Shown here piece by piece: positions 13,338 to 42,678 of a DNA stretch of 50,660 nucleotides. The notes beneath the pieces are model-generated. The model did not search any database. It had not been told where the DNA came from and worked only from the letters and a program-made list of their open reading frames with translations. The number at the start of each line of letters is the position of its first letter. The stretch's first letter is position 1. The position numbers were made by a program, and so were the translations under genes. This DNA comes from Verrucomicrobiota bacterium (GTDB lineage: Bacteria; Verrucomicrobiota; Verrucomicrobiia; Chthoniobacterales; Terrimicrobiaceae): assembly GCA_026398255.1 (NCBI GenBank), contig JAPLTG010000030.1, forward strand, positions 1-50,660, written 5' to 3'.

Positions 13338-13760
13338 TCAGACATTTTCGGGCTGGAACGACCCGCCGTAGCCGGGGCGGTAGAGCATGAGGCCGGCGAT
13401 TTGCTCGATTTTTTCAAAGTGCGCGTCGATCGAGTAAAGCCTCACGCCATCATGAATCGCGAGCGAGGCAATCAGCACATCGAGCCAAGGCACCGTTAGC
13501 CCGAGATCGCGCAACCGCCACGAGAGGCTGATGGCGCGTTCCCAATCCTCCGGGCTGACGGGGCGGTAGGGGATGATCGAAAAATACGAGCCGATGACCC
13601 GGCGTTCCTCTTTGCGCGAGCCGCCCATGACCTCGAGGCGAACCGGCGCGCAGAGTTGCGCTTCATAGGCCTCGAGGAGGGCTTCCAGGGCGACCTTCAC
13701 TTCGAGCCGCCCCTGACGCCGCAGGGCCTCGATCCAAATGGAGGAATCGATCAGAACCAT
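13338..13760 (-). CDS. vapC: VapC-type PIN-domain toxin ribonuclease
   Basis: The 140-residue PIN protein keeps the four acidic residues of the Mg-dependent nuclease centre: Asp5 (LIDSS), Glu43 (RLEVM), Asp94 (WLDVLIA) and Asp112 (SIDAHF). VapC toxins cleave tRNA or rRNA and are silenced by the partner antitoxin. It starts one base after the stop of the antitoxin gene, as usual in vapBC operons. The target RNA cannot be predicted. Confidence 0.93.
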   Translation of the reverse strand: MVLIDSSIWIEALRRQGRLEVKVALEALLEAYEAQLCAPVRLEVMGGSRKEERRVIGSYFSIIPYRPVSPEDWERAISLSWRLRDLGLTVPWLDVLIASLAIHDGVRLYSIDAHFEKIEQIAGLMLYRPGYGGSFQPENV

Positions 13761-36339: not shown

Positions 36340-36554
36340 TCACAAAGGCGCTGAGCCACGAAGGAAGAAGGCACCAAATCGAAAACTTGGAGAGCTGACC
36401 TCCGTGTCGGCCCAAACTTCAGGCGCGAAGCGCCGTTCCACAAAAAGGCAGCCTCACACGAAGCCGCAAAGGCACGAAGGGCAGATGGCCCCCAATCGAA
36501 AACCCAAGGTAGGGGCGGCTCGCCGAGCGGACCCAAGATTCAGGCGCGCAGCGC
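36340..36554 (+). repeat. Two degenerate copies of an intergenic repeat after cinA
   Basis: Two copies (about 36340-36434 and 36452-36554) share CACGAAGG, CCAAATCGAAAAC or CCCAATCGAAAAC, and a palindromic end GGCGCGAAGCGCCGTTCC / GGCGCGCAGCGCCGTTCC. Reverse-complement copies of that end occur at 41010-41041 and 41337-41371. The region does not code. Confidence 0.75.
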
Positions 36555-37123: not shown

Positions 37124-37381
37124 TCAGCTGGGATTCTCTTCGGAAAGCACTTTCTCCAACGCCTCTTCGGTCAAGCCCGCCCTCCCAGCCTCGGCTTGGA
37201 GTTCATCCATCGCCCCGGTGATCTTGCGGTTTTGCCCGGAAACCAAACTCCGGTAGAGCGCCATGGGAAGAAAGACGCCAAGATCGCGTTGATGCCGTTT
37301 GATGACCACAGGCTCTTGGATCGCATAATCAAGGAATTGCCCGAAATTCTGACGGGCTTCGGAGGCAGTCATGGCTCTCAT
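37124..37381 (-). CDS. Phd/YefM-type antitoxin
   Basis: The 85-residue product has the Phd/YefM N-terminal DNA-binding fold (MTASEARQNFGQFLDYAIQE, then PVVIKRHQRDLGVFLP) and an acidic toxin-binding tail ending EEALEKVLSEENPS. Two starts are possible: ATG 37381, eight bases past a -10 box, and ATG 37372, which begins the usual Phd sequence. It should repress the operon by binding the palindrome at 37396-37417. Confidence 0.92.
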   Translation of the reverse strand: MRAMTASEARQNFGQFLDYAIQEPVVIKRHQRDLGVFLPMALYRSLVSGQNRKITGAMDELQAEAGRAGLTEEALEKVLSEENPS

Positions 37382-37436: not shown

Positions 37437-40400
37437 TTATTTTTTTCCAAGCCAGTCATTGAAGCTAATCCAGCCATTGTTTTTAAATGGGCTGCATGGA
37501 TTTGCAGGTATGTCAGCAGGTAGTTTCCCTTTTTCTAGTAGTTTCCCTTTGCAAAACAAGCGCCATTCATTAGCAGACTTTAATTTCAAAGCATGTGCGA
37601 ATTTTCGAGCTTCAGTAAAGGAGCGATATTTTCGGCGACTAGGTGATATAGATCCTGTGCCAAGCCAATCACCGTAACCTTTCCACCCTTGACTTTTATA
37701 CGGTCTTTCAGGCCCAACAGGGATATCATTAGGAAGTTCTCCTTTTTCCGGCATTTCACCCCTACAGAATCGACGCCATTCGTTTACTGACTTTAGATTT
37801 AGCAAGTGAACATAAGAACGCGCATCTTTAAAAAACCGATATTTTCTCTTGGATGCAGCTATGATTCCAGTTCCAAGCCAATCACCCATGCCTTTCCATC
37901 CTGTATCTTTGTAACATCTTTCTGGAGCGGTTGGTATGTCGAAAGGAATTGTGCCTTTACTCTGCATTCTGCCTGAGTAGAAATCTATCCATTCTTTTGT
38001 TGATTTGAGATTTAGTGATCGAACAAAATTGCGAGCGTCTTCGAATGGACGAAAAAATCGCTCGGAATTTGAGACCCTTCCATTTCCAAGCCAATCACCA
38101 CTACCGCACCACCCTTGGTTTTTATATGTTCTGCTTGGATTAACAGGTATATCGGGCGGTAATGAGCCTTTCTCTGGTAGTTGGCCTTTACAGAACTTAA
38201 ACCATTCCTCTAAAGTCTTTATATTTAACTCGTGAACGAATGCACGAGCTTCAGAAAAAGGTCTAAATCCTCTACGAAAATTAGCAACATTCCCAGTCCC
38301 AAGCCAATCACCGTAGCCATTCCAGCCATGTTTTTTGTAAGTTATTTCAGGAAAATTAGGTATATCTAGAGGCGGCGTGCCTTTTGCGGGATTTTTCCCT
38401 CTGCAAAATTGATTCCATTCTGCTACCGAATTTAAATTTAAAGATCGAACAAAATTACGAGCTTCTTCAAATGGACGGTAACGCCGTTTTGAATTGGCAA
38501 CTCTCCCGGTTCCAAGCCAATCACCAACTCCTCGCCATCCTTGATTCCTATAAATTTTAGCGGGGTTAATAGGTATATCAGAAGGCAAAATGCCTTTTGC
38601 AGCGAGGTTCCCTCTGCAAAACTGAATCCATTCATTTCCTGTTTTAAGATTAATCGAATGCACGAACTTGCGGGCCTCAATAAATGAACGAAAAGCCCGC
38701 CTCGCATTCGCAACTCTCACGGTTCCAAGCCAATCACCTAAGCTAACCCATCCATTGTATTTATAGGTTCTTTCAGGTGTAACAGGTATATCCGCTGGTA
38801 ATGTGCCTTTTTGAGTGAGCTCACCCTTTGTGAATCTCAACCATTCAGTGTTTGATTTGAGATTTAACGATCGCACGAACGCCCGCGCCTCCTCAAACGG
38901 TCTCCAAGACAGATTCGCCAGTCGATCCCAGCATTTGAGGTCAATCTCACGGGCGAAGTCTTCGAGGTTGATTCGCTTGGCGAGTTTTTCGTCGATGTCG
39001 AAGACGACGCTGCCGCCGCCGTGGCGTTGTTTTCCCTGCGAGACGCTGCGGAAGTATTCGATGATCCGTTCGTCGTTGGCGGCCAGGGCGCGGAGGGTGG
39101 TGAGGATTTCCTTGAATTCCCCTGAGGCGAAGATGTCCTCCGGTTTGGCCTCGGCATCGTGGAGGATTGGGACGATGACATAGCCCATCTTTTTGCCTTT
39201 GGCGGGTCGCAGGGCTCGGCCGACGGCTTGCACGATATCCACGGCGCTGCGGCGCGGGTCGGCGAACATCACACAATCGATGCCCGGCACATCGACGCCT
39301 TCGGTGAGGCAGCGGGCGTTGGTGATCAGGGCACGCTCAGTGGAGGCAAATTCACTGACGATGCGGGCGCGCGGGCCGGTGGGAGTTTTTCCCGAGACAT
39401 GGAACGACTCGACCGGCGCGTGGCTTTCGAAGGAGCGGTTGTAGGCGTCGTTGTGGTCTTTGAAAATCTCTGCGCGCTGGATGCTGCTGTGGAAGGAAAC
39501 AGCATGGCGGATCGGGTATTTCCGCATCGCTTTGCGCAAGGCCACGAGCGAGGCGAGCATTTCGGCTTCGACTTCTTTGTCCCAGCGTCCTTTGTCCGGG
39601 CGCAGGAAGACATTTTTACGGACCATGTCGGTGATCTCGTCGCGGGAGACGAGGATCGTGACGATGCGGTAGTCGCTGAGAATCGGCGGCGTGGCCTCGA
39701 GCGCGCGCTTGAAGCTGAGGAGGTGGAAGGTGTCGCCGTAGATGGCGGCGTTGTCCATGCTCAGGATTTTGTCGCCCTTTCCCCGATAGCGGCGCTCGGT
39801 GGCGGTCATGAAAATGCGGCGACGGACGGGGAGGTTTTCGTCGTGGAGCAGGTGGGAGAAAAGTTTGTCGCCGTCGCCCACGGTCTTGTGCGCCTCGTCC
39901 ATGATGCCGAGGTCGAACGAGAACTTCGCCGCGCGGGCGGCCTTACCCAAAGCCTCGCCGCTCTGGTAGGTGGTGAAGACGACGGTGAGGCCGGGCTTTT
40001 TCCGCCGGAGCCATGCGGCGATCTCCTGAGGGTCGGTGAGGCACGGAGCACCGAGGTCTTGGCGTAACACGGCGGTATCGTCCTGCTCCACGCGCCCGGC
40101 GGATTCGTCGCTGCACACGCAAATCCACTCCACCTTGTCGCCATGGGCGAGCGATTCGCGGAGCCAGACTTTCAGCGTCTGCCGGATGAGCGAAAGGCTC
40201 GGAACGGCTACGAGGATTTTCTTCGCGCCGAGGTCACGGGCGATCCAGTAGGCCGTGAGGCTTTTGCCCGAGCCGCAGGGGCTGATGAGTTTCCCACGTT
40301 TTTGCTTCTTCGCGACGAAATGCTCCCGCGCATCGGCGATGGCGGATTTCTGGTGGGGCCGAGGTTTTAGTGGAACGAGCTTGGCGGGCTTGCGGCCGAG

Positions 40401-40913
40401 GAATTGGCGCAAGCGGGAGAAAAACTCGGCATCCAGCCCCTGCCAGACATCCAGTGCGCAAAAGCCGATGCGGTCTTGTTCCTTGAGAACGCGGGTGATC
40501 CTCTCCGTGGTCGAGCAGACGAGGCCGAACGAAATGTGCCGGCACACGCCGAACGCAAGGCCGGTGAATGTGGAAATCTCGCGCCAAGGCACCGGGCGCG
40601 CCGTGTCCTCGCGGTATTTGCACTGGATAGCCCAAAACTCGGCGCTGTTGGTTTCTGCGATGAGGTCGATGCCTTGGTCATCGGCCGTCAGGCGGAGTTT
40701 TTTCCGAAGTGCAGACGGAACATCCCTCAGAAGCCAGACCGAGCGCAGCTTGGTCGCGTATTCCGGATCGAGCAGAAGGTAGGCGCGAACGAGATGCTCG
40801 AACACATCGCCCTTTTCCTTTTCGGACAACCGACTGAGGTGCCCGACGAAATCCTCCCACGACGAACAACGCCCGACAGCTTTATGCAAAGCGGGGTGGT
40901 ATATGCCTTTCAT
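37437..40913 (-). CDS. PD-(D/E)xK nuclease - SF2 helicase with seven INT_rpt-like repeats
   Basis: The 1158-residue protein has three parts. Residues about 30-165 resemble an Mrr-type restriction fold with DQGIDLIA (79-86) and WAIQCKYRE (95-102), i.e. D...QxK. Residues about 185-640 are an SF2 helicase: SPCGSGKS (211-218), DEAH (339-342), MTATERR (369-375), CLTEGVDVPGIDC (535-547) and QAVGRALRP (562-570). Residues 669-1158 are seven tandem 71-residue repeats, the last being 64, with consensus FxEARxFVxxLNLKSxxEW, then KGxLPxDIP and GWxGxGDWLGTG. The repeat type resembles the phage-integrase repeat unit (Pfam INT_rpt). Composition drops sharply where the repeats start. It probably acts on foreign or damaged DNA; that role is inferred. 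Confidence 0.85.
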   Translation of the reverse strand: MKGIYHPALHKAVGRCSSWEDFVGHLSRLSEKEKGDVFEHLVRAYLLLDPEYATKLRSVWLLRDVPSALRKKLRLTADDQGIDLIAETNSAEFWAIQCKYREDTARPVPWREISTFTGLAFGVCRHISFGLVCSTTERITRVLKEQDRIGFCALDVWQGLDAEFFSRLRQFLGRKPAKLVPLKPRPHQKSAIADAREHFVAKKQKRGKLISPCGSGKSLTAYWIARDLGAKKILVAVPSLSLIRQTLKVWLRESLAHGDKVEWICVCSDESAGRVEQDDTAVLRQDLGAPCLTDPQEIAAWLRRKKPGLTVVFTTYQSGEALGKAARAAKFSFDLGIMDEAHKTVGDGDKLFSHLLHDENLPVRRRIFMTATERRYRGKGDKILSMDNAAIYGDTFHLLSFKRALEATPPILSDYRIVTILVSRDEITDMVRKNVFLRPDKGRWDKEVEAEMLASLVALRKAMRKYPIRHAVSFHSSIQRAEIFKDHNDAYNRSFESHAPVESFHVSGKTPTGPRARIVSEFASTERALITNARCLTEGVDVPGIDCVMFADPRRSAVDIVQAVGRALRPAKGKKMGYVIVPILHDAEAKPEDIFASGEFKEILTTLRALAANDERIIEYFRSVSQGKQRHGGGSVVFDIDEKLAKRINLEDFAREIDLKCWDRLANLSWRPFEEARAFVRSLNLKSNTEWLRFTKGELTQKGTLPADIPVTPERTYKYNGWVSLGDWLGTVRVANARRAFRSFIEARKFVHSINLKTGNEWIQFCRGNLAAKGILPSDIPINPAKIYRNQGWRGVGDWLGTGRVANSKRRYRPFEEARNFVRSLNLNSVAEWNQFCRGKNPAKGTPPLDIPNFPEITYKKHGWNGYGDWLGTGNVANFRRGFRPFSEARAFVHELNIKTLEEWFKFCKGQLPEKGSLPPDIPVNPSRTYKNQGWCGSGDWLGNGRVSNSERFFRPFEDARNFVRSLNLKSTKEWIDFYSGRMQSKGTIPFDIPTAPERCYKDTGWKGMGDWLGTGIIAASKRKYRFFKDARSYVHLLNLKSVNEWRRFCRGEMPEKGELPNDIPVGPERPYKSQGWKGYGDWLGTGSISPSRRKYRSFTEARKFAHALKLKSANEWRLFCKGKLLEKGKLPADIPANPCSPFKNNGWISFNDWLGKK
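37440..38909 (-). repeat. Coding array of seven 213-base repeats in the helicase gene
   Basis: The seven units start at residues 669, 740, 811, 882, 953, 1024 and 1095 and keep an exact 71-codon period with no insertions or deletions; the last stops after 64 codons. Units differ at many positions yet all keep W-x-x-F/Y, D-I-P, G-W and D-W-L-G, so they are selected for structure and not merely recent copies. Confidence 0.95.
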
Positions 40914-41123: not shown

Positions 41124-41659
41124 GAATTGGATGAATTTAGTGATCATTGCGGGGGGCATCCTAAAACGGCTGGTAGGACAAATACGGGGGGACCAGTTTT
41201 TTTTCTGTGAGAATCAGGGAAGGCTCTCACGGAGGCACCAAGGCACGGAGGTGGAGATGCAGAAAAACCGGAGAGCTGAGACCTGAAATTTGAAGATTTC
41301 TCTGCGCCCTTCGTAGCTTCGTGTGAGGTTTTCTGTAACGGCGCATTCGCGCTTGAGGTTTGGGCGCTGACAACCGAGACATCGGGCGGCGGCGGGAGTT
41401 GCTGAATGGCTCGATCAAAGTCGGACTCCAGCGTGTGGCTTCCGTAACGCCCTCAACTACCGGCCAGAATCCTTTTCTATTGCGGCAGACTCGATCTCTT
41501 TACCTCTACTCATCAAATTCCGTAAAGAACCTGCATGAGAGCGTTCACCGCGTGCATGTGGCGCTTTCCTCGGCTTTCCCTTTGTAGGATGTTTTTCGAC
41601 TGGCGGTCTCGTGCTTGCAAACCTGCGCGCCGCCGGAAACCTCCTTTCTTCGCTGGGAT
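41124..41659. other. Gene-free stretch between helicase and rfbA
   Basis: Apart from the repeat pieces described separately, 41124-41222 and 41372-41659 contain no convincing gene. A 19-codon frame on the minus strand (41513-41457) begins MSRGKEIESAA and may be a remnant of an addiction-type gene, but it is too short to call. A run of eight T's (about 41199) follows no stable stem that I can see. Confidence 0.5.
41223..41371. repeat. Inverted pair of intergenic repeat pieces
   Basis: CTCACGGAGGCACCAAGGCACGG (from 41226) reads like the plus-strand copies after cinA, while 41306-41332 (CGCCCTTCGTAGCTTCGTGT...) and 41337-41371 read as reverse copies. The two halves could pair into a long imperfect hairpin. 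Nothing coding is visible. Confidence 0.55.
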
Positions 41660-42555: not shown

Positions 42556-42658
42556 TTTACCACAATCGAAAAGGCGGGGCCTTTGAGATGGAGCAACCGA
42601 AGGTTGGCCCGTAGGGCGAGCCGAGCGGGAGCGAGCGAGTCAAAGGACACGGAGGGCA
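42556..42658 (-). repeat. Dispersed intergenic repeat, copy B
   Basis: This is the reverse-oriented partner of 491-596, placed between rfbA and rfbB, just past the rfbB stop. It carries the same AGCGAGCGAGTCAAAGGACAC core and CACAATCGAAAAGGCGGGGC end. Transcription from rfbB into rfbA would pass through it. Confidence 0.75.
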
Positions 42659-42678
42659 CGGAGGAAAAGGCCGAGGGA

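Follow-up and report, generated by a model that had tools for sequence, protein, structure and literature searches.

A Type ISP-related nuclease-translocase of Verrucomicrobiota carrying an exchangeable tandem-repeat array in place of the methyltransferase and recognition half

In restriction enzymes the activity that cuts DNA normally comes paired with host protection by a methyltransferase. The window analysed here, a stretch of 50,660 nucleotides from a Verrucomicrobiota bacterium, contains a gene for a protein that combines an Mrr-family nuclease, a superfamily 2 (SF2) helicase-type motor and seven tandem repeats, and whose core is closely related to the Type ISP enzymes. In published accounts the Type ISP chain consists of an Mrr nuclease, an SF2 ATPase, a coupler, a methyltransferase and a DNA-recognition domain, and the enzyme translocates and cuts (PMC4666363, PMC7049714). 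The window protein resembles the Type ISP enzymes LlaBIII and LlaGI in joining an N-terminal Mrr nuclease with a D...QxK motif to an SF2 translocase on one chain. It differs from them in lacking the half formed by coupler, methyltransferase and target-recognition domain (TRD), in place of which stands the tandem-repeat array, and no conserved methyltransferase gene adjoins genes of the window type. We consider it fairly likely that the product is a single-polypeptide, accessory, ATP-dependent nuclease-translocase, related to the Type ISP enzymes but devoid of a methyltransferase and fitted with an interchangeable array, and that it destroys foreign DNA. The strongest and main new result concerns the array, which behaves as a cassette that can be exchanged.

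An earlier note on this DNA, made from the sequence alone, had read the gene as one 1158-residue protein with an Mrr-like motif (GID at 81–83, QCK at 97–99) and a complete SF2 DEAH helicase core, and each of these assignments proved correct. Pfam matches were obtained for Mrr_cat_2 (residues 48–144, E 3e-16), ResIII (182–372, E 1.5e-14) and Helicase_C (469–569, E 4e-10), and the motor motifs comprise the Walker A sequence PCGSGKS (P212–S218), the DEAH box (D339-E340-A341-H342), TAT (370–372) and QAVGRAxR (562–569). Residues D83, Q97, K99, G214, G216, K217, D339, E340 and H342 are invariant across 33 homologues, and the first three of these match the corresponding positions of LlaBIII. In a sequence match to the Protein Data Bank (PDB), residues 20–626 align with LlaBIII 16–657 (E 1.8e-58), and the PADLOC model REase_MTase_IIG spans residues 28–646 (E 2.9e-93). 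The full-length AlphaFold2 model (mean predicted local distance difference test, pLDDT, 80.7) shows, at the N-terminus, the strand and helix order of a restriction-endonuclease fold, the similarity on which the earlier note had made its reading depend, and aligns with LlaBIII over 600 residues at 3.1 Å (Z 28.6). No methyltransferase domain was present among the Pfam matches, residues 661–1156 being repeats, and the Type ISP TRD is absent, the LlaBIII alignment ending at residue 626 and the C-terminus consisting of the array. Because these two defining domains were sought and found absent, the protein is not a member of the Type ISP restriction-modification systems; judged by homology, its motor and nuclease probably work as they do in a Type ISP enzyme.

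The array consists of seven units, as the earlier note had counted, of which the last six are exactly 71 aa long. The units follow one another in a gapless register with 31–44 of 71 positions identical in pairwise comparison, far above chance. The linker that precedes them is conserved up to the sequence CWDRL in the INT_rpt-type family, and its end is the point at which arrays are exchanged. Between the window and a locus of the same genus (L057), nucleotide identity is 0.89–0.97 in the core, except for the first 300 nt (0.78), and 92.9% in the toxin-antitoxin (TA) pair downstream; repeats 2–7 of the window are only 0.52–0.62 identical to any L057 repeat, which is the level seen between paralogous repeats. 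Loci L059 and L108 share a core of 92.1% nucleotide identity over 1970 nt, without gaps, that ends at the CWDRL codons where the repeats start. Beyond this point L059 has window-type repeats and L108 an unrelated ‘WADAH...GLPGGSSLA’ repeat, and 86% identity is regained over 314 nt downstream of the arrays. Exchange within an array was seen between the window and L056, where the third and fourth repeats have been substituted (nucleotide identity 0.67 and 0.71, respectively) between flanking repeats that are 0.94–0.99 identical. In all, arrays of at least three unrelated repeat families are replaced whole at one position on the Type ISP-type core, and copy number across the family ranges from about 3 to 12. 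The GC content at third codon positions is 0.78 in the core and 0.33 in the array of the window gene, with comparable gaps in L056, L073 and L057, and core and array therefore appear to differ in compositional history in these four genes.

All 33 arrays examined were basic, with a mean isoelectric point of 9.9 and +7.7 charges per 100 residues, compared with +1.0 for the cores. A model of three repeats (pLDDT 91.4) showed four helices per unit; its predicted template modelling score of 0.54 leaves the relative orientation of the units unsure. Near-constant positions of the unit are W32, P47, G62-W63 and W69-L70-G71, and the most variable are 29, 15, 48, 55, 56 and 33. In the model the variable positions 29, 30, 33 and 34 lie on the second helix, where they would suit a contact surface. 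Given that neither Foldseek nor VIA-align returned a credible PDB match for the three-repeat model, no DNA-binding fold can be assigned to the repeats. Low Pfam scores for Exonuc_X-T_C and GIDA_C_1st on the repeats were rejected as chance sums of weak stretches below threshold. Similar structure was found among predicted viral proteins, namely SF2 helicases of Klosneuvirus and Bodo saltans virus and one protein of 309 aa, which from its length and a sequence search would be that of Xanthomonas phage XacN1. The XacN1 protein BBA65486.1 (L122:3779-4708) contains two such repeats and is encoded near DNA polymerase and RNase H genes.

The gene is accessory, patchily distributed over many phyla and probably spread horizontally. 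One scan of genome contigs yielded 58 loci, about 40 of them with core and array, under submitters’ titles (mostly of metagenome-assembled genomes, MAGs) that include Verrucomicrobia, Lentisphaerae, Bacteroidetes, Proteobacteria and Neomarinimicrobiota, among others. The core tree groups partially by phylum with few misplacements, which suggests some transfer between phyla. Within one order, 12 of 387 genomes have a match at E<=1e-100, about seven of the close type (80% or more), and within the genus the helicase is matched in 2 of 15 congeners. A remnant is present in a further congener (G398), where a 167-aa open reading frame (ORF; L051:9889-10392) corresponds to part of the helicase domain. 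Interrupted copies occur at L108 and L060. A clean empty allele was found in congener G402, in which a gene-bearing contig and an empty contig share the same first 55 bp, the end of the cinA contig, and the empty contig joins window positions 36521 and 41155. The co-occurrence of both alleles in G402 is likely due to a mixed-strain MAG.

In the mechanism we propose, the basic array would bind double-stranded DNA and supply the choice of target, the SF2 motor would then translocate in the manner of a Type ISP enzyme, and cleavage by the Mrr nuclease would follow when motors stall or meet, destroying the foreign DNA. Translocation and cleavage are proposed from homology to the Type ISP enzymes, and DNA binding by the array from its charge, its position where Type ISP enzymes have their recognition half and its TRD-like exchange. 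The array would also be sequence specific and the protein directed against phages or plasmids, and the single-gene defence system suggested in the earlier note would fit. Since the methyltransferase is absent, the host could be spared by a long target absent from its genome, by specificity for modified DNA or by a structural trigger, each of which would suffice. A bolder and rather doubtful extension is that the repeats read DNA modularly, such that 5–12 units specify a target so long that the host chromosome would not contain it, for which reason no methyltransferase would be needed, and that re-targeting occurs by exchanging, adding or dropping repeats. If true, this would constitute a protein-coded, evolvable, sequence-guided form of restriction. 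Should the arrays choose the target, the protein would be a restriction enzyme whose targeting is reprogrammed in nature, its repeats might offer a new source of modular DNA-binding units, and the HA and INT_rpt-like repeats, two poorly understood families, would gain a role. Pairs that occur in nature, almost identical in the core but unlike in the array, make the targeting hypothesis directly testable.

Several points weigh against this proposal. The repeat fold lacks a PDB match, so the case for DNA binding is built from charge, cassette behaviour and the company the repeats keep, which is that of nuclease-translocase cores and giant-virus SF2 helicases. No self-protection gene is conserved nearby to account for the sparing of the host, and tandem arrays can turn over fast without selection for new targets. 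Defence genes are also sparse around the loci, where PADLOC matches among 125 near neighbours were limited to two AbiEii genes, a single Type II methyltransferase and a handful of candidate families, scattered and without a matched control.

A different role for the array, and one we regard as possible though unlikely, is that of a non-specific or structure-specific clamp on modified DNA, forks or single-strand/double-strand junctions, with specificity residing elsewhere and the protein acting as a Type IV-like or damage-directed nuclease. The lack of a methyltransferase both in the protein and as a conserved adjoining gene is as expected of Type IV enzymes, the arrays are generally basic, and very different repeat types interchange on one core. 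Wholesale replacement between genes that are otherwise 92–93% identical would, however, be unexpected of a mere clamp, as would so wide a variation in sequence together with copy number.

Two further readings place the protein outside defence. That it is a DNA-processing helicase of mobile elements, used when plasmids, integrative elements or prophages are transferred, maintained or replicated, seems improbable to us. Tyrosine recombinases lie nearby in several loci, HA-type relatives with the same core architecture are found on actinobacterial plasmids, one locus (G162/L068) sits amid genes that look phage-like by eye, and TA pairs are common on mobile elements; yet no relaxase, replicase or single type of integrase is constant across contexts, the window copy is a 4.6-kb insertion by cinA with no recombinase gene, and the nuclease motif of the Type ISP enzymes is conserved without exception. 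A chromosomal housekeeping repair helicase-nuclease resembling RadD or XPB is very improbable. RadD and XPB do resemble the SF2 core, both in sequence and in structure, but LlaBIII is by far the better match (Z 28.6 against 16–17 for the two, about 16 for RadD; E 2e-58 against 5e-8), and patchiness even within the genus, the empty allele and the broken copies do not befit such an enzyme. The features of the gene and its neighbours in the window are collected in Table 1.

Table 1. Features of the nuclease-translocase gene and the adjoining genes in the window
Feature	Position	Strand	Basis
Complete gene: Mrr nuclease, SF2 translocase and seven 71-aa repeats, 1158 aa	37437..40913	(-)	ORF, Pfam
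Mrr-family nuclease domain, residues 20–160	40434..40856	(-)	Mrr_cat_2, LlaBIII alignment, invariance, modelled fold
Nuclease active-site stretch GID(81–83)...QCK(97–99)	40617..40667	(-)	LlaBIII alignment, invariance
SF2 ATPase/translocase, residues 179–585	39159..40379	(-)	ResIII and Helicase_C, invariance, LlaBIII Z 28.6
Linker after RecA2, residues 586–660	38934..39158	(-)	INT_rpt-type family comparison
Repeat 1, residues 661–730	38724..38933	(-)	
Repeat 2, residues 731–801	38511..38723	(-)	
Repeat 3, residues 802–872; replaced in G402/L056 orthologue	38298..38510	(-)	
Repeat 4, residues 873–943; replaced in G402/L056 orthologue	38085..38297	(-)	
Repeat 5, residues 944–1014	37872..38084	(-)	
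Repeat 6, residues 1015–1085	37659..37871	(-)	
Repeat 7, residues 1086–1156, then KK-stop	37446..37658	(-)	
Phd/YefM-type antitoxin, 85 aa, directly downstream; accompanies gene in G390	37124..37381	(-)	Pfam
PIN-domain toxin (PIN_3, TIGR00305), 146 aa	36680..37120	(-)	
4.6-kb segment (gene and TA pair) missing from empty allele on G402 contig C108	36522..41154	(.)	

The adjoining genes were confirmed to form the TA pair, of Phd/PIN type, that the earlier note had placed there. TA genes recur beside the family, with Phd/PIN pairs in the window, L056 and L057, ParE by L108, AbiEii near L058 and L069 and a zeta-like gene near L078. Neighbour clustering of the loci revealed no constant partner gene, and the homologues occupy unrelated, mobile contexts, not the housekeeping-only ones that the earlier note had named as telling against it. 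A Type II methyltransferase about 1.7 kb from the gene in G390 (L057) was considered as a partner and rejected: the genome of the window yielded no homologue, and the near neighbours of the other loci show no recurrent methyltransferase. The earlier note’s placing of the gene between repeated sequences held in part. Dispersed repeats lie at both flanks of the island (36382–36547 and 41127–41288) and may have aided insertion or loss; contigs C13 and C10 of the same genome carry copies at 90%. The gene is, however, not framed by element ends in the form of a matching pair, direct or inverted, of at least 25 bp; a single 30-bp inverted match of 90% was seen. A further dispersed repeat of about 110 bp, with many 80–96% copies in the same genome and in congeners, lies between two sugar-nucleotide genes (42556–42665), and a second PIN-like ORF of 140 aa, judged by eye, is present at 13338–13760 with no obvious antitoxin adjoining. 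In two Akkermansia-titled MAGs a 407-aa protein with a weak RWP-RK-like match is encoded 18–19 bp downstream of the repeat gene (L103:9358-10581, L067:1822-3045).

The resemblance of the repeats to INT_rpt (PHINT_rpt, PF14882), proposed in the earlier note, holds indirectly. PF14882 gave no match to the window protein at E<=1 and the Pfam gathering cut-off of 26.5 bits was not reached, such that of the three segments searched with profiles the nuclease (Mrr_cat_2) and the helicase (ResIII, Helicase_C) matched but the repeats did not. A search of the window’s own genome with PF14882 also gave no match and is uninformative, as the control was equally silent. Repeats homologous to those of the window, in L097 (36.6 bits) and L114 (34.0 bits), do exceed the cut-off, and ‘INT_rpt-like’ is therefore true only by transitivity. 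The window unit further differs in its length of 71 aa, against about 55 positions, and in its partner, which is a nuclease-translocase and not an integrase.

Closest in layout are proteins annotated as ‘DEAD/DEAH box helicase’ from actinobacterial plasmids and Verrucomicrobia, which have the same Mrr_cat_2-ResIII core followed by 5–8 C-terminal repeats but whose repeats are Pfam HA (PF03457), a family that the window repeats do not match. Strong HA matches on the same kind of core were obtained for L113, L145 and the Rhodococcus plasmid protein L116, the repeats of L142–L144 are HA-like by eye, and L141 and L108 carry WADAH-type repeats on the same core; genome G732 has one INT_rpt-type and one HA-type gene. 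No described function was found for the Mrr_cat_2-ResIII-HA fusion. Because these unnamed proteins are already in the databases, the layout of core plus repeats is not categorically new; for the INT_rpt-type version and its cassette exchange, a limited literature search found no description, nor did it turn up papers on what INT_rpt does or on defence proteins of the Mrr-helicase-repeat type. The earlier note had recognized that the gene is accessory and encodes a nuclease and an SF2 helicase, and had missed the Type ISP kinship, the HA-repeat precedents and the cassette exchange.

A second group, represented by L093, L097 and the viral contig L114, likewise joins homologous repeats to an SF2 ATPase, but the helicase is another one, the repeats are N-terminal, a Rrp8-like methyltransferase (Methyltransf_8) forms the C-terminus and no Mrr nuclease was found. 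The genes lie at L114:7983-12212, L093:9019-12543 and L097:6703-10866, one of them on a viral contig of 379 kb. Repeats without a core were seen on a Nitrosopumilus-titled contig (L090, 1245–5462 and 8998–10555), in which six ORFs, five of them consecutive, are built of repeats. The MOON family of a published screen for DNA-binding tandem repeats is a different repeat (PMC11417379). No kinship in sequence or fold was found with TALE-like repeat proteins or with the swappable TRDs of Type I HsdS; the comparison with both is one of analogy, in that all would have modular recognition units that vary in length or can be exchanged.

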